64,000 nucleotides of DNA from a virus, in IMG/VR virus record IMGVR_UViG_3300022540_000472, positions 1-64,000 of that record. One strand, 5' to 3'. The notes beneath the pieces are model-generated. The model had not been told where the DNA came from. It was given only the letters and a program-made list of their open reading frames with translations, and ran no database searches. Each line of letters starts with the position of its first letter. The stretch's first letter is position 1. Below, one piece after another: positions 3,379-19,171 of the stretch. A program made the position numbers and the translations under genes.

Positions 3379-3463
3379 GCCCTTTGTTCCCGACATCGGC
3401 CTTCTAAGCCGATCCTTAGAGTTGGGTGGATGGCCTGGGGTTCGATTCCTCCAGAGGGCTCCA
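3379..3463 (+). tRNA. Atypical tRNA-Arg(UCU)
   Basis: Acceptor GCCCTTT/AGAGGGC, anticodon arm TCGGC-CTTCTAA-GCCGA (anticodon TCT) and encoded CCA are clear. The D-arm region is only about 10 nt and forms no D stem. The stretch between anticodon arm and T-loop is about 23 nt, and CCCGAC before the anticodon arm can pair with GTTGGG after it. The T-stem has a mismatch. Either this is a rearranged tRNA or a degenerate one. Confidence 0.6.
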
Positions 3464-3465: not shown

Positions 3466-3882
3466 TTACTTAGAAATAGTTATGTGATCATATCCAAGAC
3501 TTGTAGGTTCTTGTTTGAACGTATACCCAAACTTCTTACCAATTTTCTTAAGCAAATGGCTAAACACTCGAACTCGTGCAGGCTCTTCCGCATCTGATTG
3601 TATATGAAGTTTTGTTGGTTTTTCCTTTTTAATATACTGGTCTATACCACTAGAAATAGTAGATAAAATAATAAAATGGTTTTTGTTTTTCTTAGATAGT
3701 TGTTGACTTCCGTTTATATCAAATTCAAGAAATGCCTCGGAAGGATCATCGTCGGGATGAACAACAAATTGAATAGAAATAGTATCATTGTCGATATCAA
3801 ATGAGCCCTGCCAACCATATTTGTTGCGGGTTCCCCATTTAATCTGGGTGGCTGATGAATTAAATATTTCAACGATTAACAT
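3466..3882 (-). CDS. Hypothetical protein
   Basis: 138 aa on the minus strand, a soluble beta-rich protein with a basic C-terminal third. It has no recognisable family. A perfect TATAAATA box on the minus strand (3895-3888) ends only 6 nt from the start codon, so a transcript from it would have almost no leader. It converges on the tRNA-Arg. Confidence 0.55.
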   Translation of the reverse strand: MLIVEIFNSSATQIKWGTRNKYGWQGSFDIDNDTISIQFVVHPDDDPSEAFLEFDINGSQQLSKKNKNHFIILSTISSGIDQYIKKEKPTKLHIQSDAEEPARVRVFSHLLKKIGKKFGYTFKQEPTSLGYDHITISK

Positions 3883-3887
3883 ATAAG

Positions 3888-3895
3888 TATTTATA
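3888..3895 (-). promoter_or_regulatory. T4-late-like promoter box
   Basis: TATAAATA on the minus strand, immediately upstream of the 138-aa gene. It matches the T4 late consensus exactly. It overlaps the 5' edge of the RNase P RNA. Confidence 0.45.
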
Positions 3896-4097
3896 ATAGT
3901 TGACTAGGCAATCGCGCGAAAGTGAGGAAAGTCAGGACACAGTTAGAGTAAGTTGTAGGAGCTACGGCGTTTTACTACGAATAAACGAAAGGACTGTGCA
4001 ACACAAACAGAACTAGATAAACTCTAATCGATGATGTTCGGGTTGTGGCGAAGGTGAATGATTGTCCAAGACAGAATCCTGCTTATCGGTTAACTAT
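3896..4097 (+). ncRNA. rnpB: Minimal class A RNase P RNA
   Basis: About 202 nt that align by eye with E. coli M1 RNA at its universal core. GAGGAAAGTC (near 3922) matches the 5' strand of P4. GTGAATGATTGTCC, GACAGAATCC and TGCTTATCGG (4048-4089) match the 3' conserved block. P1 forms from 3896-3904 with 4089-4097, P2 from CAATC with GATTG, and P3 is reduced to a GAAA-capped mini-hairpin. E. coli M1 is 377 nt, so most peripheral helices and the specificity domain are cut down. No RNase P protein gene is in view. It ends 6 nt before a tRNA. Confidence 0.88.
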
Positions 4098-4102
4098 ATA
4101 AT

Positions 4103-4180
4103 GCTCTCGTATCCCAATTGGCAGAGGAGGCTAGTTCAAACCTAGTTAATGTGTGAGTTCGAATCTCACCGAGAGTACCA
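4103..4180 (+). tRNA. tRNA with CAA anticodon (Leu by codon)
   Basis: Acceptor GCTCTCG/CGAGAGT with a G1-T72 wobble, anticodon arm GCTAG-TTCAAAC-CTAGT (anticodon CAA), T-arm GTGAG/CTCAC and encoded CCA. The variable loop is short, unlike normal class II leucine tRNAs, so charging identity is uncertain. Confidence 0.8.
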
Positions 4181-4193
4181 GCTTTGTATTAAT

Positions 4194-4266
4194 GCCCCCT
4201 CCGATGGATACGGACCAGTGGCTTCGAACCACAGGAAAGAGCGTTCAATTCGTTCAGGGGGTACCA
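4194..4266 (+). tRNA. tRNA-Arg(UCG)
   Basis: Acceptor GCCCCCT/AGGGGGT, D-stem CCG/CGG, anticodon arm GTGG-CTTCGAA-CCAC (anticodon TCG), T-loop TTCAATT and encoded CCA. Like its neighbour it has a G1-T72 wobble pair. Confidence 0.88.
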
Positions 4267-4272
4267 AATTAG

Positions 4273-4349
4273 GGTCATATGGGTGAATTGGAAATACCGC
4301 ATCCCTCATAAGGATGAACATGCTGGTTCGATCCCAGTTATGACCACCA
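4273..4349 (+). tRNA. tRNA-Met or tRNA-Ile2 (CAU)
   Basis: Acceptor GGTCATA/TATGACC, anticodon arm CATCC-CTCATAA-GGATG (anticodon CAT), T-loop TTCGATC and encoded CCA. G1-C72 is paired, so it is not an initiator. It may be elongator Met or a lysidine-modified Ile tRNA. Confidence 0.9.
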
Positions 4350-4380
4350 AATTTATTTTTAAACTAAATAGAAAAAGCTG

Positions 4381-4408
4381 TTGACATTTCTGTAAAGTTA
4401 TGTATAAT
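4381..4408 (+). promoter_or_regulatory. Sigma70-type promoter
   Basis: TTGACA and TATAAT, both perfect, with a 16-nt spacer. It drives the structured leader and the 91-aa gene. Confidence 0.85.
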
Positions 4409-4442
4409 AGCCGGACTGTTTGAGAGAACAGCTACAGTAATG

Positions 4443-4489
4443 TTTTAATTCCCCTTGGAAGCCTATTGCAACCAATAGGAGAATTAAAA
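4443..4489 (+). promoter_or_regulatory. RBS-sequestering leader hairpin
   Basis: TTTTAATTC (4443-4451) pairs with GAATTAAAA (4481-4489), and CCTATTG (4462-4468) with CAATAGG (4473-4479). The ribosome site AGGAGA and the A of the start codon lie inside the helix. The roughly 75-nt leader from the promoter could therefore act as a switch or thermometer. Confidence 0.6.
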
Positions 4490-4764
4490 TGATTATAGTA
4501 GACTATTCCCACAGAGACTTTAAATCAATGGCTCGTACATTGCGTCCTGAAGACTTAGGTTTTCATGAGAAAGATGGATGGACAGTTGAAGGAGAAGTAG
4601 TTGAGGACTGGTATGAGTGGGTGAATGATTTCACTGCTTTTCATCCTGTTTATGGAAGAATCGAGGGAAACTTCGAAACAGAAGTAACAGCTGAAACGCA
4701 ATTGGCATTAGATCACTTTCTTCACAACCACCCTTATTCTGAATGGGATTATTATGACATTTAG
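4489..4764 (+). CDS. Hypothetical acidic protein
   Basis: 91 aa, rich in Asp, Glu, Trp and Tyr, with no family recognised and no membrane segment. It has its own strong promoter 80 nt upstream, and its ribosome site lies inside a stable hairpin, so its expression seems specially controlled. It ends with TAG. The following 1.36 kb are non-coding. Confidence 0.65.
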   Translation: MIIVDYSHRDFKSMARTLRPEDLGFHEKDGWTVEGEVVEDWYEWVNDFTAFHPVYGRIEGNFETEVTAETQLALDHFLHNHPYSEWDYYDI

Positions 4765-4769
4765 GTGTC

Positions 4770-5125
4770 ATATACGAATTATAAATGTACCAGAAACATA
4801 AGAACCTGGCGAAAGCAACCCCATAGTGGGTCTAAGTCGAGTCAATGGTAATCCGAAAGGACCCGTTGAACGTAGGATGAAGTTTGGCAACTGGGTCCTT
4901 TAAATGCATATCGTGCTGACATTTATATTTAAACACTAATGACGGTTACTTTTTGTGCACCAAGGTAATTCGTGTCGTGTTAGATTCCGATGCATTACGT
5001 AGGGGAGGAGAAATCCGTAGAACCGATTATCGTAGGAAGCACTCACGAGCTTACAGTGGGATCATCGTTATGGGATGGTGAATAGGAATCCGTTGGTGCG
5101 ACCAAACAGACCACCAACAATTATT
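4770..5125 (+). ncRNA. Candidate structured RNA A
   Basis: No open frame, but many helices. AAAGGACCC-GTTG (near 4856) pairs with CAAC-T-GGGTCCTTT about 20 nt on. GCACCAA (4957-4963) pairs with TTGGTGC (5093-5099) across about 130 nt. A competing local hairpin GTTGGTG (5092-5098)/CACCAAC (5112-5118) precedes a T-rich stretch and could end transcription. No known family was recognised. It may be an extension of the preceding mRNA or a separate RNA. Confidence 0.5.
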
Positions 5126-5147
5126 TTGATTTAATTTTAAAAACCTG

Positions 5148-5176
5148 TTGACTTTTAAGTTGATAAGTGATATAAT
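5148..5176 (+). promoter_or_regulatory. Sigma70-type promoter for large RNA B
   Basis: TTGACT, 17-nt spacer, TATAAT. The expected start near 5184 opens the large non-coding region. Confidence 0.85.
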
Positions 5177-5183
5177 AATTAAA

Positions 5184-6115
5184 TCGGTTGGGAAACCAAT
5201 CAAAGAGTTTTAAAGTTTAGCCGCATGGGGTAGATAACCTCTGGTAACAGAGCGAAAGGGCAGTGATCTAACTATAGCTGTCGCCATTAGGATTTATCCG
5301 AAGTGGACATCCATGCAAGCCAAACCTCCCCAGCGATGGGGTCTTCACTTACAAGTGCGGTGGAGATAACTATGAAGTAAGTGCATAGGAAAGAGTTGTT
5401 ATTTAAGGGCCTGCAAAGGTAACCCAAGTAACAAAAGAGTAACAGGTGGTGCTGACCTCTATGTTAAACCAGCTTGCGAATAGGTAGGGTAAATGGTAGG
5501 AATGTTGTTCGAGGTGCAAACAAGAGCTTCATTCCAAACTAGTATGTATTCCCTTAGGGGTGCATATGTTAGGTTTTTGGGTTGATTCGTCAATCCATAT
5601 AAATCTTGAAAGTTGACTGAGTTCCGGTAGGATAAAGGTATTTGATGTAGTGTATTTTGTAACTCAAAAGGTTACGAAGCATTAGTCCGCACACATCGAG
5701 GTTAGTTATGATATAGCTCATTGTAGAGCATCTGCTTTTGGTGCAGAAGGCGGTTGGTTCAAATCCAACTATCTTTTAAAAAACGCAAAGTTGCGGACAG
5801 TAGTAAGTTAAAATGGCTTAATCCTTCACACTTATGTGAATGAAGGCATCCGAAACTCGCGAGGCGGAGGATGTTAAAGTAGAGTCGCACGGAAGACGTT
5901 AGCGCGTCATTGCAGTCCTAATAAGATTGACGGTAGATAAAACTTTGAGTAGCTTGCTATGATATGAGAATCGCCACTCATTAAAAAAGGCAGTCATGTT
6001 TGTAAACTCTGTTTGACGGAGTGGATAAGAGTAGAACTCTAGGTGTCGCAACTGATGAGATAATGACTCGAAAGTACAAATGGTAAAGCTATAATCTCAG
6101 GCTTACAACAACTAA
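5184..6115 (+). ncRNA. Large ornate structured RNA, GOLLD/ROOL-like
   Basis: About 930 nt without a coding frame, behind its own strong promoter. Nested helices are easy to find: GCATGG (5223-5228)/CCATGC (5311-5316) encloses TAGAT/ATCTA and a CTCTG-GTAA-CAGAG hairpin; CACTTAC (5346-5352)/GTAAGTG (5377-5383); TGAGAT (6056-6061)/ATCTCA (6094-6099). A 7-bp helix GTCCGCA (5685-5691)/TGCGGAC (5792-5798) encloses a tRNA-like domain. Size, phage setting and embedded tRNA resemble GOLLD RNAs, which are known from phages and lake metagenomes. Family assignment is by appearance only. The bS21 gene starts about 16 nt after the end, so the RNA may also be the leader of that message. Confidence 0.65.
5707..5776 (+). 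tRNA. tRNA-Gln(UUG)-like domain inside RNA B
   Basis: D-arm GCTC/GAGC, anticodon arm CTGC-TTTTGGT-GCAG (anticodon TTG) and T-arm GTTGG-TTCAAAT-CCAAC are intact. The acceptor stem has only about 4-5 pairs and no CCA is encoded. A perfect 7-bp outer helix locks it into the larger RNA. It may be a structural tRNA mimic rather than a working tRNA. Confidence 0.7.
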
Positions 6116-6131
6116 ATTAAAAAGGTTTAAT

Positions 6132-6362
6132 ATGTTAAAAGTAAGAGCAACAGTAAAACGAAAGCACGAAAATGAAAGTTTTGAATCATTGATGAGACGT
6201 TTCAAGCGTTCATGTGAAAAAGCTGACATTCTATCAGAAGTCCGAGAACGAGAGTTCTTTGAACGACCAACTACAAAACGAAAACGTAGCAAAGCTGCTG
6301 CCAAGAAACGAGAACAAAAACGAGTTTCTGGCGATAAAACTAAATTTAAAAGATTATATTAA
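6132..6362 (+). CDS. rpsU: Ribosomal protein bS21
   Basis: 76 aa with the bS21 signature: [10 protein letters not shown] (residues 22-31), [22 protein letters not shown], and a basic tail. bS21 binds the 30S platform near the anti-Shine-Dalgarno end of 16S rRNA and affects mRNA choice. Phage copies are known and are thought to steer host ribosomes. A short N-terminal extension ([11 protein letters not shown]) replaces the usual MPVIKVR start. It lies directly after large RNA B and ends in a strong terminator. Confidence 0.93.
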
Positions 6363-6386
6363 AAAGATGCTAAGGCATCTTTTTTC
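6361..6386 (+). terminator. Rho-independent terminator after bS21
   Basis: Stem AAAAAGATGC (6361-6370)/GCATCTTTTT (6375-6384) with a TAAG loop and further T. It overlaps the bS21 stop codon. Confidence 0.88.
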
Positions 6387-6389
6387 TTT

Positions 6390-6479
6390 GGAGGGTCGGC
6401 GAAGACGGTGAGTCGCGCTTACCTGGAAAGTAAGTGGCCCCTTTAAACGGGTCTGAGGGTTCGAATCCCTTGCCCTCCT
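6390..6479 (+). tRNA. tRNA-Ser(GGA)
   Basis: Class II tRNA with acceptor GGAGGGT/GCCCTCC, anticodon arm CTTAC-CTGGAAA-GTAAG (anticodon GGA) and a long variable arm. Unlike the other tRNAs here, CCA is not encoded (CTA follows the discriminator), so it needs host CCA addition. Confidence 0.9.
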
Positions 6480-6547
6480 CTAAAGTTACATCCTCAAATG
6501 AACAGTCCTGTTCATTATCTCCCTAAAGTAAAACAATAAATATCTCT

Positions 6548-7147
6548 ATGAAATTACGATATGTAGAAATAGAAACATCAAAAATATATAATAGACTAGC
6601 AATTGAAAACCAAACATGTTGGAGCAATGCTCCGCAATGGCATGATACTTGGTTTGAACCTGAAACAATCAGCCTACGAAAACAATTCGCTGATATATGG
6701 CGCGAAGAGTTTGATAAAATAATTCCACATTTCAACAAACTCGAACAATCAATCCCAGTAGATGGAATCAAATCTCCAATAAGTCTTATATCTGGTCCTC
6801 CGCGTGACAAATTCCTTAAAACACCTGACTACACCGTACGAGGACATTATCCTCCTCAGTACTACTCAAATCTCGACAACCTATTATTCGTTCAACCATT
6901 TGGTGGCAGCCGAGTCACTGTTGCTGAGAAATTAGGAATTGAAAAGATTCCATGTGTCGTTCATGATTTCTCAAATTTATTCCCAGATGCTCCAGAAGTT
7001 AATCAGCGCAACTATCGAGATTGGTTTGATGATAATTATATGTTTTGTGGTCAGGCACCACACATACGGGATGGAGCTATGAATGCTCAACACAGAAATG
7101 CTCAACAAACAGCTTCAAGAATTGCTAAGGAGAAAATGAATGTATAA
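6548..7147 (+). CDS. ParB/sulfiredoxin-like domain protein
   Basis: 199 aa. The middle (residues 70-145) has the ParB N-domain style: VDGIKSPISL, then QPFGGSRVTVAEKLGIEKIP, in which the GGSR-type loop binds nucleotide in this fold. Phage relatives act as partition-like, nuclease or kinase proteins, so the activity is open. It overlaps the glycosyltransferase gene by 8 nt and heads the glycan island. An AATAAATA box ends 5 nt before the start, which would leave almost no leader. Confidence 0.55.
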   Translation: MKLRYVEIETSKIYNRLAIENQTCWSNAPQWHDTWFEPETISLRKQFADIWREEFDKIIPHFNKLEQSIPVDGIKSPISLISGPPRDKFLKTPDYTVRGHYPPQYYSNLDNLLFVQPFGGSRVTVAEKLGIEKIPCVVHDFSNLFPDAPEVNQRNYRDWFDDNYMFCGQAPHIRDGAMNAQHRNAQQTASRIAKEKMNV

Positions 7148-7820
7148 TGTTGTATGTCTTAAATGGGGAACAAAATTTACTCCAGAATATGTTAATAGAT
7201 TATTTTATGGCGTTCGTAGAAACACAACAGTTCCTTTTAAGTTTCATTGTTTTACTGATGACGCAACAGGATTAGATTCAGATATTCAACTTCATCCGTT
7301 ACCACATACTAATGTAGAAGGGTGGTGGCAGAAATTATATTTGTTCAGTGATGAAATCGATATTGAAGGACGAGTTCTATTCATTGATCTTGATACATTA
7401 ATAACTGGAAACATAGATAATTACATAACGCACAATAAAGGAATTGCTGTAATGCAAGACATTTGGCAGAAAGGAGATAATGTTGGTTCCGCTGTAATGT
7501 CATTCGAAGTTGGGCAGCATACACAAATTTGGGATACTTTTATTAAGGACCCAGTCGCAGCAGTAAGAAGTCTTCATCCACATGGTGACCAAAAGTGGAT
7601 ACAACGACATCAAGCTCAAAGAATGTATTGGCAAATTATGTATCCAGAACAAATACTTAGCTTCAAATCTGGTTGCAGAGGTGGACTTCCACCAACCGCA
7701 CGTATCATTTGTTATCATGGAAAACCTTCAATTATTGAATCGATGACAATTACAACACAAGTACAAGGATTTACTATACCACCAACAAAATGGGTAGAGG
7801 AGTATTGGAAAGATGACTAA
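7140..7820 (+). CDS. Glycosyltransferase, GT-A type
   Basis: 226 aa. FIDLDTLITGNID (residues about 81-93) carries the DxD metal/nucleotide-sugar motif, and the N-terminal VVCLKWGTKF strand fits a GT-A fold similar to GT8 or related families. Donor and acceptor are unknown. It overlaps both neighbours by 8 nt in a tight operon with a UDP-sugar dehydrogenase, so a uronic-acid transferase is a reasonable guess. Confidence 0.7.
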   Translation: MYNVVCLKWGTKFTPEYVNRLFYGVRRNTTVPFKFHCFTDDATGLDSDIQLHPLPHTNVEGWWQKLYLFSDEIDIEGRVLFIDLDTLITGNIDNYITHNKGIAVMQDIWQKGDNVGSAVMSFEVGQHTQIWDTFIKDPVAAVRSLHPHGDQKWIQRHQAQRMYWQIMYPEQILSFKSGCRGGLPPTARIICYHGKPSIIESMTITTQVQGFTIPPTKWVEEYWKDD

Positions 7821-8616
7821 ATTAAGTATGGGAATAATTGGGACTGGATTTGTTGGCGGTAGTGTTGCCAACGGATTCGACCAAAATGTTGAGCAATTAA
7901 TCGTTGACCCAAAATATAGCGAATTAACAATTGAACGATGTGTATGTAAATCACCTTCGTTAATTTTTATTTGTGTACCAACGCCACCAGCCGAAAATGG
8001 TGATGTGGATGTATCAATTGCAAGAACGATTCTTAAAGAACTTGATGATTTACATTATGAAGGAATTGTTGTAATTAAAAGTACTATTATACCTAGTCAC
8101 CTACAACAATTCCAACGAGACTTTGACTTGCGTATAGTGTATAATCCAGAGTTCTTAACAGAAGCAAATGCACATTGGGATTTTTGTAATCCTCCAATGC
8201 AAATACTAGGTGGCAAGTGGGAAGACTGTGAAGTGGTTGAAAAAGCTTATGTCCATCACAGCAGCGTAAATGTTGTTCCAACATTTAAAACAGATATAGC
8301 TACTGCAAGTATGTTAAAATATACAATCAATAGTTGGTTAGCGACCAAAGTAGTATTCATGAACGAATTAAGAGAATTATTTGAGGCTTCAGGTGCAGAT
8401 GCATCTTGGTCACAGTTTACTGATATGTTATCTCGTGATGTACGTATTGGACATTCGCATATGTCAGTACCTGGACCTGATGGATATTTTGGGTTCGGTG
8501 GACACTGCTTTCCAAAAGATACATCAGCCTTGTTGTATTATGCTAAATCTTTAGATAGTGATATGAGTGTATTGGAACAAGCTGTAACAAAAAATAAAGA
8601 GGTACGAGATGACTAA
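7813..8616 (+). CDS. UDP-glucose/GDP-mannose dehydrogenase family, short form
   Basis: 267 aa. The Rossmann motif GIIGTGFVGGSVA is at residues 8-20 and the catalytic cysteine is C232 in GFGGHCFPKD. Members oxidise a UDP- or GDP-hexose to the uronic acid with two NAD+. Usual length is 390-450 aa; this protein stops after the central domain and lacks the C-terminal UDP-binding domain. It could still work if the remaining domains bind the substrate, or may use another partner. The 4-epimerase further downstream would act on its product. Confidence 0.85.
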   Translation: MTKLSMGIIGTGFVGGSVANGFDQNVEQLIVDPKYSELTIERCVCKSPSLIFICVPTPPAENGDVDVSIARTILKELDDLHYEGIVVIKSTIIPSHLQQFQRDFDLRIVYNPEFLTEANAHWDFCNPPMQILGGKWEDCEVVEKAYVHHSSVNVVPTFKTDIATASMLKYTINSWLATKVVFMNELRELFEASGADASWSQFTDMLSRDVRIGHSHMSVPGPDGYFGFGGHCFPKDTSALLYYAKSLDSDMSVLEQAVTKNKEVRDD

Positions 8617-9418
8617 TTTAATCTTTCAAGTTTGTGTTGGTCCAAATCCACCAGCGTTCTATGAAACGTGTATAACATCTGCAAAACAATACGCTGACCA
8701 GATTGGGGCAGACCATATAGTTCTTAGAGAACCTGAATTAAAAATCCGTCCACTAAATTCTCATAGAAGTGAGCAAGCAGTTGAACGGCTAGGGTACCTT
8801 CCAATATATGAAAAAGAAGTTGCTTTTAAGTACCTTGACCGATATGATAATATTGCAATTGTTGATAGTGATATCTTTATACGTGAATCCGCTCCTAACA
8901 TATTTGATGAGTTAGATGATGATACAATATTTGCAGGAGTAGCAGAAAGAGATATGCCTCTCACAGCACAATACATACAAAAGATTAAAGCGTATAGCCA
9001 AGGACAATATAATTCATTACAAGATGTTGATTGGAAGTGGAGTCCTACTCATGGTGCTGAATTTTATAATATGGGATTAATGGTATTTTCAAATAAAATT
9101 ATTGAATACTTGAATGGTGAGACACCTGAACAATTTATTAGAAGACCTGAATTTGAACGATTCGTAAATGGTGAAGGTAATTGGAAATGGTCAACAGACC
9201 AAACATTATTAAACTACTGGGTTAAACAATCTGGAATGAAGGTGAAAAATTTAGATTGGAAATGGAATACATTATTCAAAGGTGTACGAGATGAGATGCT
9301 ACCAGAATCTTACTTTATTCATTTCTTTTTATCTGGTAACTTACCTCAGAATGGTAAGGAGATTCCATCAATCATTGCGGACCTCGATAAAGCGGCTACA
9401 ATAAAAGGACACGGATAA
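8609..9418 (+). CDS. Glycosyltransferase-like protein
   Basis: 269 aa. NIAIVDSDIFI near residues 91-101 is a DxD-type motif at the end of a hydrophobic strand, and the N-terminal half has a GT-A look. It overlaps the dehydrogenase and abuts the sulfotransferase (ATG shares the stop). Substrate unknown. Confidence 0.6.
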   Translation: MTNLIFQVCVGPNPPAFYETCITSAKQYADQIGADHIVLREPELKIRPLNSHRSEQAVERLGYLPIYEKEVAFKYLDRYDNIAIVDSDIFIRESAPNIFDELDDDTIFAGVAERDMPLTAQYIQKIKAYSQGQYNSLQDVDWKWSPTHGAEFYNMGLMVFSNKIIEYLNGETPEQFIRRPEFERFVNGEGNWKWSTDQTLLNYWVKQSGMKVKNLDWKWNTLFKGVRDEMLPESYFIHFFLSGNLPQNGKEIPSIIADLDKAATIKGHG

Positions 9419-9966
9419 TGATTATTAATAAAACAAATAACTTTATTTTCGTTCATGTTTACAGAACAGGTGGAAGTAGTATTGATAGATCGTTTGGTGG
9501 AACTACAAATGGAATGCCAACACATACTAAACTTGAAGAAGTTCCAAATTGGGAAAAATATTTTTCTTTTGGTGTTATTAGAAATCCATGGGATAGGACA
9601 GTTTCTTCTTACAACTACTTAACTACGAAAAAACAATTTACAGGAACTTTTTTTGAATATATACATATGTTTGCCGAAGGTAGATTAAAAACAGCAAAAA
9701 AATACGCTCAACATGATATGGTTAAAAATTGTTCCTATGTTATGCGATTCGAGTATTTACAAGAAGATTTCAATGAAGTGTGTAAACTAATTGGTATTCA
9801 ACCACCAAACCTTCCTCATGTATGGAAAACGGAACACAAGCCTTACACAGAGTTATACACAGAAGAAATGAAACAAATTATTGCAGAAGCATCATCTGGT
9901 GATGTCGAAGAGTATGGTTTTTCTTTTGAAGGAACAGCTACAAAAAATGTAGGTGACAAACGATGA
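9418..9966 (+). CDS. Sulfotransferase
   Basis: 182 aa. FVHVYRTGGSSI (residues 11-22) fits the 5'-phosphosulfate loop and RNPWDRTVSSYNYL (residues about 57-70) the 3'-phosphate-binding motif of PAPS-dependent sulfotransferases. It would transfer sulfate from PAPS to a carbohydrate. The loop has R where many enzymes have K. It overlaps the next glycosyltransferase by 4 nt. An APS-kinase-like gene at 15581-16009 could supply PAPS. Confidence 0.8.
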   Translation: MIINKTNNFIFVHVYRTGGSSIDRSFGGTTNGMPTHTKLEEVPNWEKYFSFGVIRNPWDRTVSSYNYLTTKKQFTGTFFEYIHMFAEGRLKTAKKYAQHDMVKNCSYVMRFEYLQEDFNEVCKLIGIQPPNLPHVWKTEHKPYTELYTEEMKQIIAEASSGDVEEYGFSFEGTATKNVGDKR

Positions 9967-10658
9967 GAGCTTTTGTGATTACACTAAAAGATAACACATA
10001 TTCTGAGAAGAAAGCATCGGAATGCATCGCATCAGCCGCAGGTTTTGAGACCGCCGTAGAACGGTTCTACGGCGTTGATAAGCTGCATGCTGAACAGGTG
10101 ATGAATGACCACGATCTCACGTGGAAATGGGCTAAGAACAATACTGAGAGCGTGATATGTCCAATTTCTGGCCTCAAACAGTTCCCATATAATGCGGCTG
10201 ATTTGAGAGCGAAAATAGGATGCTCAATGTCCCATTATCTGTTATGGAAAAAATGCATTGAACTGGATGAGCCTATTCTGATATTAGAACATGATGCAGT
10301 ATTTTTACGAGAACTTCCTGACTTTGAATTCAAAGGAATATGTCAAATCAATGACCCTTCAGGTGCAACCCGAAAAGGACATTGGTGGAGTCAGCAAATG
10401 ATAGCTCGTGGTGGTTTTGGTGCTTTTGAAAAAACATGGGTAACATCAGAGAGCGAACGAATGATTCCAGATGGCCTTGCAGGTAACTCAGCATATGTAA
10501 TTAGACCTTGGGCAGCAAAAGAGCTGGTAAACACATTTTATAAATACGGCGTATGGCCAAATGATGCTACAATGTGTAAACAATTGTTTCCTTATTTGGA
10601 AGAATATTATCCATTTATAACAAACGTAAATCAAACACAATCAACGACAGTGAACTAA
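9963..10658 (+). CDS. Glycosyltransferase family 25 (LPS type)
   Basis: 231 aa. It has the GT25 layout: VITLKDN at the start, KIGCSMSHYLLWKKCIE near residues 80-96, then ILILEHDAVF near 101-110 with the acidic E-D pair, and a late GNSAYVIRPWAAKEL segment. GT25 enzymes add galactose-like sugars to lipopolysaccharide or collagen-type acceptors. The first 330 nt are visibly richer in G+C than the rest and contain a 21-nt palindrome, suggesting a recombined 5' part. Confidence 0.8.
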   Translation: MRAFVITLKDNTYSEKKASECIASAAGFETAVERFYGVDKLHAEQVMNDHDLTWKWAKNNTESVICPISGLKQFPYNAADLRAKIGCSMSHYLLWKKCIELDEPILILEHDAVFLRELPDFEFKGICQINDPSGATRKGHWWSQQMIARGGFGAFEKTWVTSESERMIPDGLAGNSAYVIRPWAAKELVNTFYKYGVWPNDATMCKQLFPYLEEYYPFITNVNQTQSTTVN

Positions 10659-10662
10659 TTAT

Positions 10663-11331
10663 ATGAAAAAACACTTTATACATATTCCAAAAAATGGTGG
10701 AATGACAATAAGACATTCGCCACACCTAAAAGGAAAAATTACATTATCTACACCAAACAATCATATTACCCCCGAATACACAAAACGGTTAAAAGCACAA
10801 ATGGTTAAATATGGTGAACATCATGGTAATGAACATGCACGGTGGAGAGATTTAAAAGAAAACATACGAAATGGAGAGTGTTTTGCTGTTATTAGAAATC
10901 CTTGGAGTAAGGTAGTATCACGATATACTTATAGTGAGCTAGCTCACAAAAATGGAAGTAAATATGCTCCAATGAGTTTCACATTTGAAGAATTTTTAGA
11001 ACAACGACACGAATTTGGTAATTTAGAGTTTTTCTGGCATAGAGCAATTAAAGGTTGGTTTCAACAAAAAGATCATGTGACTGATGACCAAGGTAATTTA
11101 AAAGTTGATATACTCAGGTTAGATCATTTGGATGAAGATATTAGCAAATATTTCAATATTTCTGTTGACATGAATGTTAGAAATTTAAGTAATGTATCTA
11201 ACCATAATTATAAAGATTTTTATAACGATTCAACGAAAAGAATTGTTGCTGATTGGTATGCTGAAGATATAGAGTTTTTTGGGTTCACTTTTGATGGTGG
11301 AGCTACAAAAAACATTTGGAATATAAAATAG
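10663..11331 (+). CDS. Sulfotransferase
   Basis: 222 aa. FIHIPKNGGMTIR (residues 5-17) is a clear 5'-phosphosulfate-binding loop with the catalytic-type lysine, and VIRNPWSKVVSRYTY (residues about 72-86) is the 3'-phosphate motif. It resembles the sulfotransferase-2/heparan sulfotransferase families. It is the second sulfotransferase in the island and differs strongly from the first, so it probably has another acceptor. Confidence 0.83.
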   Translation: MKKHFIHIPKNGGMTIRHSPHLKGKITLSTPNNHITPEYTKRLKAQMVKYGEHHGNEHARWRDLKENIRNGECFAVIRNPWSKVVSRYTYSELAHKNGSKYAPMSFTFEEFLEQRHEFGNLEFFWHRAIKGWFQQKDHVTDDQGNLKVDILRLDHLDEDISKYFNISVDMNVRNLSNVSNHNYKDFYNDSTKRIVADWYAEDIEFFGFTFDGGATKNIWNIK

Positions 11332-11344
11332 GAGTAAAAATGGT

Positions 11345-11917
11345 ATGATGTTTGGAAAGAATCCAGGAACCAATGAGACTTGGAAAAGAATACCAAATGG
11401 TTCAATAGGTGTAGAGCTTGGAGTTTGGAAAGGTGACTCAAGTGAAAAGTTTTTACAACGTGCTAAACATCTACACTTAGTTGATCCTTGGTCTGTTGTT
11501 GCGTATGAAGACTCAGATGAATTTGGAAATTATGAAGGATACTTAGATCGTTACTCTAAATTAGTTGGCTCACGAAATCCGAAAGATTTTCAAAAGTATT
11601 ATGATGACATTGCTGAATCTGTACAATTAAAATTTAAAAATAATCCTGTAACTATTCATCGGATGACTACAGATGAGTTCTTTGATACATTTGAAGGTCA
11701 GGTCGATTGGGTATATGTAGATGCACTACATAATTTTGAGGGATGTCTTTCAGATTTAAGAAACTCGCTTAAAATTATCAAAGTGGGTGGAGTTATATTT
11801 GGAGATGACTACGGTAATAAACCAGGTGTAATAAAAGCTGTCGATGCGTTTATCGCTGAAACAGGACTCACACTTGAAACTTTCTCGACGAATCAATATG
11901 AAATAAAGGTAACATAA
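11345..11917 (+). CDS. Class I SAM-dependent methyltransferase
   Basis: 190 aa. GVELGVWKGDSS (residues 21-32) is the SAM-binding glycine motif, WVYVDALHNFEG the acidic post-II region, and VGGVIFGDDY a TylF/macrocin O-methyltransferase-like block. It is likely a sugar O-methyltransferase, given the context. The start at 11345 was chosen for the GGAG 10 nt upstream; the next codon is also ATG. Confidence 0.75.
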   Translation: MMFGKNPGTNETWKRIPNGSIGVELGVWKGDSSEKFLQRAKHLHLVDPWSVVAYEDSDEFGNYEGYLDRYSKLVGSRNPKDFQKYYDDIAESVQLKFKNNPVTIHRMTTDEFFDTFEGQVDWVYVDALHNFEGCLSDLRNSLKIIKVGGVIFGDDYGNKPGVIKAVDAFIAETGLTLETFSTNQYEIKVT

Positions 11918-12465
11918 TGCATCCATCAAGTGTAGAAAATATGAAAAAGATACGAGCACAGTATCTCCAGTATCTAAACAAAATTGAGAATCCTAAAGTG
12001 CTTGATGTTGGTGGTTTACATAACCAACCAGAAAAATCATATCTGAGATTATTTGAAAATATTCCAGGTATTGAATGGACTGTTGCTGATATTGTTGAAC
12101 ATCCAAGTGTTAATGTAGTAATGACGAATCCATTTGTTCTTCCATTTGAAGATGAGACTTTTGATTTAGTTGTATCAGGTCAAATGCTTGAACATAGCGC
12201 AAATCCTTTTAAGAGTGTTGCTGAAATGCATCGGGTTTTAAAAACAGGTGGACGACTTGCTCTTGCAGCACCATCTGCAGGTCCTCGTCATGATGCTCAA
12301 GATGGGTGGAGATTCATGGATGATGCCTTCAGATTTATTGCTGAAGATATTGGTGGTATTGAAATAATCGCCGATTGGATTCATAAAGATGCGCCAGATA
12401 CCCGTTCACGTAAGTGGCAAGACCACCTATTTGTTGGAAAAAAAATACACAGAGAAATAAGATGA
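11917..12465 (+). CDS. Class I SAM-dependent methyltransferase
   Basis: 182 aa of the Methyltransf_11 kind: VLDVGGLHNQ (residues 28-37) as motif I, DLVVSGQMLEH near 85-95 and LKTGGRLALAAPS near 108-120. Its acceptor is unknown. It starts on the last base of the preceding gene and overlaps the next by 4 nt, so three methyltransferases are translated in series. Confidence 0.78.
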   Translation: MHPSSVENMKKIRAQYLQYLNKIENPKVLDVGGLHNQPEKSYLRLFENIPGIEWTVADIVEHPSVNVVMTNPFVLPFEDETFDLVVSGQMLEHSANPFKSVAEMHRVLKTGGRLALAAPSAGPRHDAQDGWRFMDDAFRFIAEDIGGIEIIADWIHKDAPDTRSRKWQDHLFVGKKIHREIR

Positions 12466-13226
12466 AATATTCAAAAGACAAGATTATGTCACACCTATAT
12501 AACTGCGATGATGGCTCATATGATAAAACAATTCCAGGATGGTGGAAGGATTCTGCGTTTGAAATATACGAAGCGTTTGACTTAATACAAAAGGATTTAA
12601 AGATAGAAGGGGATTTGTGTGAGATTGGAACTTGGTTTGGTCGTTCATTCTTAGCCCTACGAAACTTTGCAGAAGATCACGAGACGTGCATCGGTATTGA
12701 TATTTTTAAGCACAGCAAACACGAATATTATTCTGCTTTAATCAATAACATCGAAAAATGTTTTGGAAATCTTAACAGAAGTAAAATTATTAAAGTCTCT
12801 CCAAGCAGCTCCCCCACAGAGAAGTGTGAAGTTCTTACCCCATATACACCAATAAGAATATTTTACATAGATGGCGATCATTCGTATGCGGGGGCTTTAC
12901 TTGACCTCAACGTTGCTAAGGAAGTTCTTCACAAAGATGGGATTGTGTTCCTTGATGATTACGAAAACCCCAGATATGGACCAAACGTGACAAAGGCTGT
13001 TAATACCTTCATTAACGAAAACGATGATTTTGCTTTGGCTTTCTCGTCATCACAGCGAATATTTTTATGTAGGAAACATATGGTAGATTCATATGTATCG
13101 GCTATGTCAAAACTTAACTGGAATGTCAGCAAGGACATGGTGTGGGTGGATCTTATTAACTTTGAACATCCACATGGATATAACTCATGGCAACAGATGC
13201 AACAATTGCAAGAACAAAACATATGA
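12462..13226 (+). CDS. Class I methyltransferase-like protein
   Basis: 254 aa. LCEIGTWFGRSFLAL (near residues 48-62) is SAM motif I, and IFYIDGDHSYAGALLDL near 136-152 plus GIVFLDDYENP near 163-173 follow the Methyltransf_24 pattern. The frame is open to 12414, but the ATG at 12462 overlaps the previous stop as ATGA and is preferred. The C-terminal 60 residues are extra and unmatched. Confidence 0.7.
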   Translation: MKYSKDKIMSHLYNCDDGSYDKTIPGWWKDSAFEIYEAFDLIQKDLKIEGDLCEIGTWFGRSFLALRNFAEDHETCIGIDIFKHSKHEYYSALINNIEKCFGNLNRSKIIKVSPSSSPTEKCEVLTPYTPIRIFYIDGDHSYAGALLDLNVAKEVLHKDGIVFLDDYENPRYGPNVTKAVNTFINENDDFALAFSSSQRIFLCRKHMVDSYVSAMSKLNWNVSKDMVWVDLINFEHPHGYNSWQQMQQLQEQNI

Positions 13227-13250
13227 AGTCTTCGGACTGGTAGGTGATAA

Positions 13251-13904
13251 ATGAAAGGTTATGTAGGAATAGTTTTACAAATACCAGAATCAATGGCAGT
13301 AGGACTTAGGTGTATTGAATCTGGTAGAATGTTTGACATTGATGTTATAATTGAACCTGCTGTATATAAAGAATTTGCTATGGAACAGCTTGAATATCAT
13401 AAACTAAAACTATCAAAGTGGGATGAGTCATATTCAAGCATCGGTGCTGTAGTAGGAAACTTTATAACACAATATCGTTGTTGGAAACATATTGTTGAAA
13501 ATGATGAACCAGGTATTGTTCTTGAACATGATGCGATTTTTGTTGGACCTATTCCAGATTTAACAGGGAAAGGTGATATTATAAATCTCGGCAAACCAAG
13601 CTTTGGAAAATTTAAGTCTCAAAATCAACCTGGTGTATATCCTATGTTTTCAAAGACAGGTGGATACATTCCTGGTGCTCATGGATATTACCTTACCCCA
13701 AAAGGTGCTCAACAATTAATAGACAAAGCTAAAGTGTTAGGTGCAACTCCTTGTGATTTATTTTTGAATAAAACAAACTTTCCAGATATTAAAGAATTAT
13801 ATCCTTGGCCAATTGAAGCAGATGATTCATTTACAACTATACAAAAAGAAAAAGGTTGTGGTGCTAAACACAACTATAACGAAGATTATAAAATAATAGA
13901 GTAA
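13251..13904 (+). CDS. Glycosyltransferase family 25-like
   Basis: 217 aa. It follows the GT25 layout: GAVVGNFITQYRCWKHIVE near residues 63-81, PGIVLEHDAIF near 86-96, and GAHGYYLTPKGAQQLID near 142-158. It is a second, diverged GT25 in the island. Substrate not known. Confidence 0.75.
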   Translation: MKGYVGIVLQIPESMAVGLRCIESGRMFDIDVIIEPAVYKEFAMEQLEYHKLKLSKWDESYSSIGAVVGNFITQYRCWKHIVENDEPGIVLEHDAIFVGPIPDLTGKGDIINLGKPSFGKFKSQNQPGVYPMFSKTGGYIPGAHGYYLTPKGAQQLIDKAKVLGATPCDLFLNKTNFPDIKELYPWPIEADDSFTTIQKEKGCGAKHNYNEDYKIIE

Positions 13905-13907
13905 GAT

Positions 13908-14930
13908 ATGAAAGTATTAGTAACAGGTTCAGCAGGATTCATTGGTTCAGCAGTATGTTTAAAGTTACTTGAAAGAGGAGACGAAGTTATTGGGATTGAT
14001 AATCATAACGATTACTATGATCCACTTCTTAAAAAGGCTCGATTAGATCGACACATTAAACATTCAAATTATACTCATTATATGATCGATCTATCTAATA
14101 GAGATGATATCGCTGCAACTTTCAAATACCATAAACCACAACGAGTTATTAATCTTGCTGCCCAAGCTGGAGTCCGTTACTCATTGGAAAATCCACTTGC
14201 TTATGTTGATAGTAATTTGGTAGGGTTTGCTAATGTATTAGAGAGCTGCCGTCACAATAATGTTGAGCATCTTGTTTATGCGTCATCAAGTTCAGTGTAT
14301 GGAGCAAATACAACTACACCATTCTCAGTACATGACAACGTTGACCATCCATTAAGTTTATATGCTGCTACAAAGAAAGCTAATGAACTAATGTCACACA
14401 CTTATAGCCACTTATATAATTTACCAACTACTGGACTACGATTCTTTACTGTGTATGGACCTTGGGATAGACCTGATATGGCTTTGCAGAAATTTGCTAA
14501 AGCGATTTTAGCAGGAGATGAAATTGATGTGTTTAATTATGGACAACATCGTAGAGATTTTACATACATTGATGATATCGTAGAAGGTATAATTCGAGTA
14601 TTAGATAAGCCTGCAGAACCAAATCCTGATTGGAATGGGGACAACCCAGACCCTTGTACAAGCAATGCTCCATACAAAATATATAACATCGGAAACAATA
14701 ATGTAGTTGAATTATTAAGATATATTGAAGTATTAGAAGAGAATTTAGGCGTTAAGGCTAAAAAGAATATGCTTCCATTACAAGCTGGCGATGTTGTCGC
14801 GACATATGCAAATGTTGATGATTTGGTGCGAGATTTTGATTATAAACCAAGCACCAATATCGAAGATGGGATTAAAGAATTTGCCAAATGGTACAAGGAT
14901 TACTACGGTGAAACTCCACACTCAGGATAA
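13908..14930 (+). CDS. UDP-glucuronate 4-epimerase-like SDR
   Basis: 340 aa extended short-chain dehydrogenase. [12 protein letters not shown] (residues 5-16) binds NAD, Y-x3-K is present in [11 protein letters not shown], and DNHNDYYDP after the second strand is typical of UDP-glucuronate 4-epimerases. The expected reaction is UDP-GlcA to UDP-GalA. With the dehydrogenase at 7813-8616 it makes a two-step route from UDP-glucose to UDP-galacturonate. Full length for the family. Confidence 0.87.
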
Positions 14931-14933
14931 ATA
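14926..14933 (+). promoter_or_regulatory. T4-late-like promoter box
   Basis: GATAAATA, 24 nt before the membrane protein gene at 14957 and overlapping the epimerase stop. Confidence 0.45.
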
Positions 14934-14956
14934 GTTAATACACGGAGGTATTAAAA

Positions 14957-15298
14957 ATGGCAAATGCAGTTGACGCAGTAAAGAATAATCCATGGAAAAC
15001 AGTATTAGCTGCTATTCCTGTTCTGATAACTGTCATATATTTTGCAGTAGATGTAAGCAATTGGATTGTTACTCAAGAAGATTTAAACAATGCAAAAAGG
15101 GAAATTATTAATGAGATGCGTGATGAATCAGCAAAGATCCGTACAGCATATCTCCACGATTTAGAATCACGTCTTGAAGATGTAGAAGTTGAAATGGAAT
15201 CTCTCGAAGAAGCAAACCAAATAATTCCAACGGCAACAAGAAGAAAGGCAAAGAGACTTCAGCGTAGAATAAATGAAATCACAAATGGGATAAACTAA
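14957..15298 (+). CDS. Membrane-anchored coiled-coil protein
   Basis: 113 aa. One hydrophobic segment (residues about 16-36) follows a short N-terminus, and the rest is a charged coiled coil. The AUG has GGAGG upstream and a late-type box before that. It overlaps the exported protein that follows by a shared base (TAATG), an arrangement seen in lysis (spanin-like) or envelope gene pairs. The function is not established. Confidence 0.6.
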   Translation: MANAVDAVKNNPWKTVLAAIPVLITVIYFAVDVSNWIVTQEDLNNAKREIINEMRDESAKIRTAYLHDLESRLEDVEVEMESLEEANQIIPTATRRKAKRLQRRINEITNGIN

Positions 15299-15612
15299 TG
15301 AATAAAATTATAACTATATTATTTGCATTAATTATTATGTTACCAGTTGGATACGCTGCACCATCAATTAATGATGATATCCCATCTGTAGGTGAGCGGA
15401 TGCGAAATAACTTTAAGCAACAAGCTGAAATGGAAGGTCCGCTCACTGAAGAAGAACAAGAAGACTTAATTACTTGTCAAGAAAAAATTGATAGGTATAC
15501 CAAAAAAGTTAACAAATATGTCGGTAAAATTAATCTTGATGATTTTCAACAGTGGAAATTCAAACATTACACAAAACGTCTTAACTGGTGGAAGAAATAT
15601 TGCGCTGAATAA
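15298..15612 (+). CDS. Small secreted protein
   Basis: 104 aa. Residues 1-20 form a signal peptide with a likely cleavage after GYA-A; there is no lipobox cysteine. The mature part has two cysteines (near residues 57 and 102) that could form one disulfide, and is otherwise helical. It pairs with the coiled-coil membrane protein upstream. The 3' end overlaps the convergent APS-kinase-like gene by 32 nt. Confidence 0.6.
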   Translation: MNKIITILFALIIMLPVGYAAPSINDDIPSVGERMRNNFKQQAEMEGPLTEEEQEDLITCQEKIDRYTKKVNKYVGKINLDDFQQWKFKHYTKRLNWWKKYCAE

Positions 15613-16009
15613 TATCAGCCCATTCTTCAGGAGTACCTTTTTCTAATACACGAACATCATATTCCGTTGGTGGCTCGAATAACTGATTTGTGTCATCAAA
15701 CCTACCTGCCTTAATACGATCAACCCAAACAACAAATGCTTTTTCAGTATCAAATGCTTCTCGTGTTTCTTTTGTTGGGCAAATGAAATCAACAACAACA
15801 TAATGTCCTGCATCAACAACTCTATCAGACATCCATTTCATCCGTTTTGCTTGAATTATACGGTCTTCTGGAGCGAATCCTAAGTCAGTACTGATATTCT
15901 GCCGTACTTCATCAGCATTGAAGTGGACTGCGTTAAATCGCTTGACAAGCTCTGTGGCAAGTGTGGTTTTACCAGAACCTGGTAACCCCATTACAAGAAT
16001 CTTTTTCAT
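15581..16009 (-). CDS. APS kinase-like P-loop kinase
   Basis: 142 aa. GLPGSGKTTLA (residues 8-18) is the Walker A loop. NADEVRQNISTDLGFAPEDR (residues about 31-50) parallels the D-x-R-x3-x-LGFxxEDR region of CysC. DAGHYVVVDFICP parallels the next CysC strand. APS kinase makes PAPS, the donor for the two sulfotransferases in this island. It is shorter than bacterial CysC (about 180-200 aa). An alternative is another small nucleoside kinase. Confidence 0.72.
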   Translation of the reverse strand: MKKILVMGLPGSGKTTLATELVKRFNAVHFNADEVRQNISTDLGFAPEDRIIQAKRMKWMSDRVVDAGHYVVVDFICPTKETREAFDTEKAFVVWVDRIKAGRFDDTNQLFEPPTEYDVRVLEKGTPEEWADIIQRNISSTS

Positions 16010-16029
16010 ATATTACCCTATTGTTTCTG

Positions 16030-16058
16030 TTGATATTTTGTATGATATTATTTATAAT
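16030..16058 (+). promoter_or_regulatory. Sigma70-type promoter
   Basis: TTGATA, 17-nt spacer, TATAAT, 33 nt upstream of the 85-aa gene. Confidence 0.7.
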
Positions 16059-16090
16059 ATACCTCAATACCCGTTCATTAGGAAACTTAG

Positions 16091-16348
16091 ATGCTTTTAC
16101 CAGAATCGTTTTTACAAACTATAAAATACTATGAGAGTGAATCTCTTCGTTATGAAAATTATAAGTATCATGATTGTATTACAATATACTTTAAATCTAT
16201 CTGGAAACGAAAGAAAGTATTAAAGTGGCAATGTGTTAGATGCAGCGAAGACGGTCAGAATGTAGTAAAAACATCACATGATTATAATGAATTGAAGAAA
16301 CAACTCGACGAATATTTCGCATCAATCAAAAATGATTTGAGATTATAA
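16091..16348 (+). CDS. Hypothetical protein
   Basis: 85 aa, basic and aromatic with one C-x2-C pair (WQCVRCSED). No family recognised. It has its own promoter and ends just before a tRNA. Confidence 0.6.
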   Translation: MLLPESFLQTIKYYESESLRYENYKYHDCITIYFKSIWKRKKVLKWQCVRCSEDGQNVVKTSHDYNELKKQLDEYFASIKNDLRL

Positions 16349-16350
16349 AA

Positions 16351-16426
16351 GTTCAGTTAGCTCAGTGGTAGAGCCGAAGACTCTAAATCTTTGTGGTCGA
16401 GGGTTCGAACCCCTCACTGAACACCA
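16351..16426 (+). tRNA. tRNA with amber anticodon (CUA)
   Basis: Acceptor GTTCAGT/ACTGAAC, D-arm GCTC/GAGC, anticodon arm GAAGA-CTCTAAA-TCTTT (anticodon CTA), T-arm GAGGG/CCCTC and encoded CCA. The cloverleaf is complete. CTA reads the UAG stop codon. The loop is the same as that of E. coli supF. The amino acid cannot be told. Confidence 0.85.
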
Positions 16427-16461
16427 AACACTAAATAACATTATCCTGTAGGAGAATTGTT

Positions 16462-16752
16462 ATGAATTTTTTAACACACACGATGATGCTCGTAATTGGT
16501 TTTTTAATGCTGCCAATATTTATTGGTATTGCTGAGTATAATCGACCATCCGAATTTACTGGGAATCACAAAGAACCAGGTGAAGTTTTAGCTACTACGA
16601 CAAAACGAGATTTTCACAAATGTGAAAACACAGGATTTACGATGGTTGAGCTTCAGTTAAGTAAGAAAATCATTATTCTATGTGGGATTCACAAATCTGC
16701 AGGGAAAAAAATCTCTGTAACTGTTGACGGACCATTAAGGGTTGATATATAA
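16462..16752 (+). CDS. Small membrane-anchored protein
   Basis: 96 aa with a hydrophobic N-terminal segment (residues about 7-25), either a signal anchor or uncleaved signal. The outward part has two cysteines. GGAGAA precedes the ATG and a CTAAATA late-like box lies 25 nt upstream. Function unknown. Confidence 0.6.
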   Translation: MNFLTHTMMLVIGFLMLPIFIGIAEYNRPSEFTGNHKEPGEVLATTTKRDFHKCENTGFTMVELQLSKKIIILCGIHKSAGKKISVTVDGPLRVDI

Positions 16753-16912
16753 TAGGCAACATTAGATATACTTTTACTAAATAGAATTAACACAACACAG
16801 GAGTTAGAACAATGTTATAGGTACATTATTTAAAAACGGGTCCTCCGTAATATGATTGTTACATATCAATTTTCGCAAACAAAACAATCAAATTAAATTA
16901 CTGGAGAATACC

Positions 16913-17452
16913 ATGAAAACACTACAAATCGAAAACACACGCGAAATCTTTTTTACAAGCAAAGAACAATATCTACACCTACGTAAAGTCTGGTCACAGG
17001 CTGTAAATTCTGCCGAGAATTATAAGCTAACTGCTGGACATCATTTAATATATTCACTTCTTCGTGGCAGAGATGCTATGAAAGGCTTCACGCCAACTAC
17101 AAACACCAACAAACTTTCAAATGGTGCTTATATCAACTATGGACTATACGAAGCTCGTAATGAGTTAAGTCGTATGGCTGGTTATGTACGTGGTTACATC
17201 AAAAACGCAGAGATGGCGAAAGTTGACAAAAACGTAGCCTTCTGGATGGGAGAAGTTGGAAACTTCTTAAAACCATTCGATGGTGCTGTAACCCCTCAAA
17301 TGCTTATCAAACTTGATGATTTATGTCCAAAAATTGAGTTATTGGAATCAGGATATGGTAAAGGTCGTCAAATAGCTAAATTAATTATCGAATCTAAAAC
17401 TAAACCTATATCATATGCTGATGTATGGACTATGTATGAGGAGGTGGCGTAA
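16913..17452 (+). CDS. Hypothetical protein
   Basis: 179 aa, soluble and helical, with no recognised domain. The frame is open to 16856, but the ATG at 16913 has GGAGAA 8 nt before it and is preferred. The 160-nt gap upstream holds an ACTAAATA-like box and no gene. It starts a chain of five overlapping small genes (16913-19087) that look like an early-gene operon. Confidence 0.65.
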   Translation: MKTLQIENTREIFFTSKEQYLHLRKVWSQAVNSAENYKLTAGHHLIYSLLRGRDAMKGFTPTTNTNKLSNGAYINYGLYEARNELSRMAGYVRGYIKNAEMAKVDKNVAFWMGEVGNFLKPFDGAVTPQMLIKLDDLCPKIELLESGYGKGRQIAKLIIESKTKPISYADVWTMYEEVA

Positions 17453-17847
17453 TGGATGCTTATGTTGAAGAAAACTTAAAACTCATTGAGTCATATAAAA
17501 TCCTCCATGATCGTATGGAAGCAATTGCTGAGGATTACATTAGAATTAATAATGGACGAGAAATTGATACGATTGATAGTGTTACTATTGATGGTGAATA
17601 TATTGAGGTCGAAGGACGAAACTATTCTCACTGTGGATGCTGTGGTGATGATTATGAAAGTTATGAAATTCCAATTTCTTATTTGTGGAATCCTGACTGG
17701 AGAGAAGATTTGCGTGAAGAATTAACGAAACGCAATTTGGAAGCTCTCAAGAAAAAGGAAGCAGAGAAAAAGGAAAAAGAACGCAAGGATAAAGAAGCTG
17801 AGTATAAACGTTTCTTGGAGTTAAAGGAGAAATTCGATGACCGTTAA
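17452..17847 (+). CDS. Hypothetical protein with charged coiled coil
   Basis: 131 aa. The middle has CGCCGDDYESYEIPISYLW, a cluster of three cysteines that could bind metal. The last 45 residues are a Lys/Glu-rich helix. It starts on the last base of the previous gene (TAATG). Confidence 0.6.
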   Translation: MDAYVEENLKLIESYKILHDRMEAIAEDYIRINNGREIDTIDSVTIDGEYIEVEGRNYSHCGCCGDDYESYEIPISYLWNPDWREDLREELTKRNLEALKKKEAEKKEKERKDKEAEYKRFLELKEKFDDR

Positions 17848-18049
17848 TCAACTTATAACATACTTGAGCGAATATGCTATCAATGACCATGGGAGAGAAA
17901 GTGAAATTGATTTCTATAATATGAATACTGAAGAGTATATGGAATTGATGCCACAAGACGACTGTGATGATCCAGGAATTGAACATAATCATTATGGTGG
18001 TTGTGGGTGCATTATGGGATTCACCTTAAATTTGAGGATGAAGAAATGA
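17837..18049 (+). CDS. Hypothetical protein
   Basis: 70 aa, acidic, ending with a CGCIMGFTL segment after a His/Asp-rich stretch. It overlaps both neighbours. No family recognised. Confidence 0.55.
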   Translation: MTVNQLITYLSEYAINDHGRESEIDFYNMNTEEYMELMPQDDCDDPGIEHNHYGGCGCIMGFTLNLRMKK

Positions 18050-19087: not shown

Positions 19088-19093
19088 ATTCTG

Positions 19094-19122: not shown

Positions 19123-19171
19123 GTACCGATAGTAAATACCCCTATGGGTAACTAAAAAAGGAGACCTGCAA

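Follow-up and report, generated by a model that had tools for sequence, protein, structure and literature searches.

The window analyzed here, a stretch of 64,000 nt (positions 1 to 64,000 of IMG/VR virus record IMGVR_UViG_3300022540_000472), belongs to a record with genes for a major head protein (phrog_138), a split topoisomerase II, a ribonucleotide reductase, a DnaB-like helicase, an NAD ligase, and an RNA ligase, and this gene content identifies the virus as a phage. A mini RNase P RNA gene (rnpB-like; 3896 to 4101, plus strand, as are all parts of the RNA described below) is followed on the same strand by tRNA-Leu(CAA) at 4103 to 4180 (ARAGORN; Rfam, 46.9 bits) and then by tRNA-Met(CAT) at 4273 to 4349 (ARAGORN and Rfam), both with encoded CCA; the RNA does stand directly before a tRNA cluster, as the first-pass annotation of this DNA had stated. 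The leader of the tRNA-Leu gene is the RNase P RNA itself, the tRNA starting 5 nt past P1. A permuted tmRNA, which that annotation had also reported, was found by both ARAGORN and RF04321 (113 bits) at ~42.5 to 42.9 kb (42525 to 42928, plus strand; tag ANDESYAYAMAA) and is likely an additional RNase P substrate.

Other RNA genes lie in the same window. A GOLLD RNA occupies 5150 to 6103 (RF02032, 178.9 bits over 5642 to 6103), with tRNA-Gln(TTG) inside it at 5707 to 5777 and a sigma-70-like promoter at 5148 to 5176, and GOLLD, mini RNase P RNA, permuted tmRNA, and tRNAs are all combined in one phage. Two tRNA-like genes were missed by both ARAGORN and Rfam: one at 3379 to 3463, with anticodon loop CTTCTAA (Arg TCT), a very short D-arm region, a CCA end, and 81% similarity to a stretch of Nitrincola phage 1M3-16, and one at ~4194 to 4266, with anticodon loop CTTCGAA (Arg TCG) and a CCA end. 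A tRNA with anticodon CTA (16351 to 16426; Pyl according to ARAGORN) is a possible amber decoder, and TAG is the stop of only 5 of the 47 larger ORFs.

In a cmscan comparison with the bacterial class A RNase P RNA model (RF00010), positions 3896 to 4101 matched with 62.8 bits (E = 1.3e-18) and aligned end to end with model positions 1 to 367; RF00010 matched nowhere else in the virus record of 92,113 bp. The score, although significant, is under the RF00010 gathering score of 100 because ~160 model positions are deleted, the RNA being ~206 nt long versus ~370 nt for bacterial class A RNase P RNA. R1, a covariance model built from ten relatives with the window held out, matched 3906 to 4085 with 82.3 bits and an E value of 1.2e-17, which excludes chance, and this match was stronger than that of Rfam's own model. 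The archaeal model RF00373 was not reported for the window by cmscan, in a listing that holds the best match of each clan only. Minimum free energy folding was no better than for shuffled sequences (z = -1.27) and was set aside as evidence, since the RNA has two pseudoknots that such folding does not model. The earlier recognition of an RNase P RNA of ~200 nt is thus borne out by two covariance models, and on sequence grounds the element is confirmed as a phage-encoded, class-A-derived RNase P RNA. We file it as a reduced variant and not as standard class A because the specificity (S) domain P7 to P14, with CR-II and CR-III, is missing.

Helices P1 to P6, P15, and P16 form in the window RNA, P17/P18 are absent, and P7 to P14 of class A are replaced by a single ~45-nt hairpin. 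P1 (3896 to 3904/4089 to 4097) and P2 (3907 to 3914/4059 to 4066; 5' strand GGCAAUCG) are supported by a cognate pairing test, with 24 relatives for P1, and P2 also by alignment A3, and P3 is a 3-bp stub, CGC-GAAA-GUG (3915 to 3924), read from the sequence. P4 pairs AAG-[U3932]-CAGG with CCUGCUU (3929 to 3936/4078 to 4084; RF00010 and A3) and forms a pseudoknot with P2. These helices, the GAAA-capped P3, and the 3' conserved block all lie where the first-pass annotation had placed them. The class A conserved regions CR-I (GAGGAAAGUC), CR-IV (ACAGAAUCCUGCUUA), and CR-V (AGGUGAAUG) are all aligned in the window RNA by RF00010 and R1: CR-I lies at 3924 to 3936 (GAGGAAAGUCAGG, including the P4 5' strand and bulged U3932; also in A3), CR-V, which is J18/2, at 4052 to 4060, and CR-IV, with the P4 3' strand, at 4071 to 4085. 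P5 (3938 to 3943/3993 to 3998; 5' strand CACAGU) and the P6 pseudoknot (UAGAGU with ACUCUA, 3944 to 3949/4021 to 4026) both have support from the cognate pairing test, and the 7-bp P6 covaries in A3. A P4 pseudoknot with a bulged U together with a P6 pseudoknot is a hallmark of class A. GCAA (J5/15) and J15/16 (CACAAACA) at 3998 to 4009 and P15 at 4002 to 4005/4044 to 4047 are supported by the same test and by R1. The P16 stem GAAC/GUUC (4010 to 4039; strands 4010 to 4013/4036 to 4039; sequence and A3 helix 8) carries the P6 3' strand in its loop. The GGU of L15, with which bacterial RNase P binds the 3'-CCA of tRNAs, is found at 4041 to 4043 (sequence and R1) and in all 10 aligned relatives; counts of GGU by loose regular expression have a high chance rate and were left out as evidence. 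Upstream, TATAAGTA at 3882 to 3889 on the plus strand, 7 nt before P1, is by its sequence a possible -10 or T4-late-like promoter element; a sigma-70 promoter scan of the region listed nothing there, and relatives L025 to L031 have TATAAT or TACAAT at a similar position.

The fold is maintained by compensatory change, for which the first-pass annotation had proposed looking in relatives. Alignment A3 covers ten relatives and 37 pairs, with the P4 and P6 pseudoknots counted among them. Of its cells, 95.4% pair, and both sides change in 25 pairs, compared with 12.3 in shuffles (0 of 500 reach 25). When partners were slid by 1 to 3 columns, pairing fell to 32 to 48%. Alignment A2 had misplaced L004, L014, and L049, and A3 without these was used for the counts and for R1; L047 was excluded for masked bases. 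In an alignment-independent test that compared cognate with noncognate strands in 24 relatives, P1, P2, P5, P6, and P15 each gave 0 of 2,000 noncognate permutations matching the cognate pairing. The claim that the S domain is mostly missing holds for most of it, but a small hairpin with a conserved motif remains at 3950 to 3992 and is homologous in relatives. It consists of a helix (UUGUAG/CUACGA, 3953 to 3958/3975 to 3980) closing GAG ... GUUUUA, and in the window and 13 relatives, in which the pattern is GAG-stem-GNUNNNA, 0 of 5,000 permutations equaled the support for the helix. We speculate that the UNNNA beside this helix resembles a T-loop, the module with which RNase P contacts the tRNA elbow.

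Pattern scans and the covariance model recovered ~90 distinct mini RNase P RNAs in IMG/VR contigs, megaphages, and cultured Microbacterium phages, usually within tRNA arrays. The first scan of IMG/VR, for GAGGAAAGTCNGG...ACAGAANCC at a spacing of 79 to 171 nt, returned 30 stretches, and 28 proved genuine; RF00010 matched in the records of 25 of these 28, over its cutoff in 3. Among the pattern matches of the scans, L006, L015, L032, L150, and L168 were discarded as chance coding sequence. The window RNA had been called one of the smallest of its kind, which does not hold, as L025 to L031 are only ~155 to 165 nt long; in these, no more than a few loop bases cap P5, and the S domain is therefore gone. 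The actinophage-type forms L010, L011, L016, L020, L023, and L024 are ~220 to 245 nt long, and several of them have a different, CCACUAAGC...CUUAAAAAGCA-like S-domain remnant. R1 also detects the tiny forms, the actinophage forms, and a copy in an Achromobacter anxifer island (81.7 bits), whereas full-size rnpB of planctomycetes reaches only 11.7 to 23 bits, and the mini RNAs are therefore a coherent family. L005, L008, and L018 may be separate reductions of host genes, with RF00010 scores of 118.5, 106.8, and 105.5 bits versus R1 scores of 39.5, 48.4, and 57.5 bits.

The majority of members have a P4 helix that differs from the standard one by a one-pair shift. Megaphage members carry GAGGAAGUUC...GNCUA in place of GAGGAAAGUC...GCUUA, forming AGU-[U]-CNNN/NNNG-NCU with the bulged U retained. 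When IMG/VR was scanned for the shifted form, 84 stretches were found; R1 matches 82, and 66 of these are distinct. Four P4 pairs, not fixed by the search pattern or fixed on one side only, could be tested in this set, and all four are intact in 66 of 66 distinct sequences. Three of them vary among GC, CG, AT, and TA and exceed the shuffles (maxima of 61, 45, and 52 of 66); the fourth pair, in which U faces G or A, carries no information. Selection retains P4 and its bulged U even where normally universal letters differ. An Rfam search of five shifted-P4 loci gave no RNase P RNA match over a gathering score, and the best matches for two shifted-P4 relatives were to archaeal RNase P RNA (RF00373) with 35.4 and 26.4 bits, far below 84.

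Three cultured phages of Microbacterium foliorum, A3Wally, Zooman, and Big4 (~192 to 195 kb), carry an unannotated mini RNase P RNA, flanked on either side by a tRNA-Arg gene that lies a few bases away. The P4 is shifted in Zooman and standard in its near relative A3Wally. Standard annotation overlooks such genes because they score under the Rfam cutoff. R1 was positive in 3 of 4 megaphages tested (595 to 642 kb), namely, LR756502 (642 kb, 106.6 bits), LR756511 (595 kb, 101.6 bits), and LR745206 (635 kb, 79.8 bits), and RF00010 under strict filters had no match in these three. RNase P is not mentioned in the main texts of the papers dealing with these megaphages (PMC7162821, PMC9723777). No match was found in T4, Bacillus phage G, XacN1, CcrColossus, Atu_ph07, Thermus phages, or Jay2Jay, so mini RNase P is not general in large phages. 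Nitrincola phage 1M3-16 and Erwinia phage phiEa21-4, the nearest named phages by tRNA similarity, were considered as carriers and gave no match.

Among 398 sampled genomes of one bacterial phylum, two had a match at an E value of ≤1e-5, including the Achromobacter island, and the family is therefore mostly a phage property; a plasmid nucleotide search gave no match. The Achromobacter anxifer island (L086 contig, 4001 to 24000) holds ~47 to 48 tRNA genes, a permuted tmRNA, and the mini RNase P RNA, and the same genome also has a full-size rnpB. In a Gemmataceae MAG (L048, 4553 to 4798; G030, C5:196561-196784), a mini RNase P RNA lies amid chromosomal genes for aldose epimerase, MalQ, and a DUF58-like protein, with no other RF00010 match in the MAG; it is possible that the host rnpB was replaced by a phage-type one or that the MAG is incomplete. 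The idea that mini RNase P is general in Gemmataceae was rejected, as full-size rnpB scored over the cutoff in 34 of 41 genomes. Another Gemmataceae genome has, ~900 bp downstream of its full-size rnpB, a second and weak match to RF00010 (33.5 bits over 182 nt; L087, G033 C1:4869928-4870109).

A search for rnpA elsewhere in the genome, which the first-pass annotation had suggested, found no PF00825 match in the window's record, and the 28 member records (29 genomes in total) likewise gave none. Since no tested member genome encodes RnpA, the protein subunit is most likely borrowed from the host. From homology, the covariation-based fold, gene context, and RnpA absence, we infer transcription, catalysis, use of host RnpA, and the substrates, and the RNA is probably an S-domain-less ribozyme that uses host RnpA to mature phage tRNAs. 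It would act in trans, as almost the catalytic domain alone, and would be transcribed together with the phage tRNA array or just ahead of it. Its fold would rest on P1/P2 and on two pseudoknots, P6 and P4, the latter being the metal-binding core that holds the bulged U. The L15 GGU would bind the 3'-CCA of pre-tRNAs, and the RNA would cut off the 5' leaders of phage tRNAs and probably also process the permuted phage tmRNA; its own 3' end would probably come from RNase P cleavage ahead of the downstream tRNA. In some of the member phages there are tRNAs that lack an encoded CCA, and GGU is therefore not needed to the same degree everywhere. The smaller S domain may weaken recognition of the pre-tRNA elbow. 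The E. coli catalytic domain alone cleaves, with lower efficiency than full RNase P, and a P6-like contact is beneficial (PMC5839562); the phage RNAs have a long natural P6.

The absence of a phage RnpA, together with the fact that the RnpA-contacting parts (P2-P3, CR-IV, and CR-V) are best conserved, would also fit a catalytically inert mimic of RNase P RNA that titrates away host RnpA, or the substrates of RNase P, and shuts down host tRNA maturation to the benefit of the phage. However, a decoy for the protein needs no P4 with bulged U, P6, P15, or GGU, yet compensatory selection there is strong, and placement in tRNA arrays suits processing more than sabotage; we regard a decoy as very unlikely. 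The spacing of neighboring tRNAs bears on another alternative, a cis-acting element that mainly processes the adjoining 3' tRNA or signals processing of the array and is not a general trans enzyme. Besides the tRNA-Leu gene so close to P1 in the window, the first set has 17 loci, of 32, where the next tRNA begins 11 to 30 nt past GCUUA, nearly all tRNAs being on the same strand, and a tRNA starts within 30 to 40 nt downstream in 20 of the 66 distinct loci of the second set, 58 of which have tRNAs. RNase P is a multiple-turnover trans enzyme, however, and the fold is kept also in the many members whose next tRNA lies hundreds of bases off or is absent from the locus; we regard a mainly local role as highly improbable. 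A functionless, decaying fragment of a captured host rnpB, as the large deletions relative to the host RNA and the score below the Rfam gathering threshold might suggest, is in effect refuted by the compensatory changes, the covariation extending over ~90 distinct members. Also speaking against it are the conservation of the S-domain remnant and the poor scores of full-size rnpB on a family model that is itself coherent.

The tRNA-maturing ribozyme favored here can be set beside several known systems. With class A RNase P RNA (RF00010) it shares P1 to P6, P15, P16, CR-I, CR-IV, CR-V, the P4 bulged U, and the GGU in L15, but it is ~206 nt long versus a 367-position model, has a short hairpin for P7 to P14, lacks P17/P18, resides in a phage genome without linked rnpA, and in most relatives has the one-pair-shifted P4. 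Among archaea, the type T RNase P RNA of Pyrobaculum, which we take to be RF02357 and which was reportedly described by Lai et al. in 2010, offers another comparison. This type T (type P) RNA is ~195 to 215 nt long and has lost nearly all of its specificity domain (PMC7191817, PMC4919922). The phage RNA is similar in size and likewise has its S domain nearly gone, but unlike type T, which is archaeal and works with archaeal proteins, it has the bacterial CR blocks and the L15 GGU, and it scores with the bacterial model and with no archaeal model above threshold. The engineered E. coli C-domain RNA (Eco CP RPR, PMC5839562) is also a catalytic domain without an S domain in which a P6-like contact is important, but it is a laboratory deletion, whereas the phage RNAs are natural genes in which a long, true P6 has evolved along with a remnant of the S domain. 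The diverged RNase P RNAs of CPR bacteria similarly lack helices and fall below Rfam cutoffs but are chromosomal and larger, some without GGU, which the phage RNA keeps (PMC8172020).

Open-access full texts in PMC yielded no published description of a phage RNase P RNA, consistent with the earlier remark that such genes are scarcely described, and we found no catalogue entry for the phage mini-ribozyme family. RNase P RNA and the archaeal S-domain-less type T are already known.

Overall, these RNAs of phages and megaphages probably constitute a structural class of their own among RNase P RNAs, ~155 to 245 nt long, in which a conserved T-loop-like hairpin stands in for the S domain or the domain is lost, and P4 is in most cases re-registered with its bulged U kept. 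With host RnpA, such an RNA would serve large tRNA-array phages as their own tRNA-maturing ribozyme. Few ribozymes are nearly universal, and RNase P is among them; a viral mini RNase P would extend phage translation equipment (tRNAs and tmRNA) to tRNA maturation. The phage RNAs would be natural minimal ribozymes revealing which parts of RNase P are dispensable, and the cultured Microbacterium phages allow direct testing. P4 has been shifted by one base pair in nature dozens of times over, which is informative for a long-standing problem, the workings of the P4 metal site and the bulged U.
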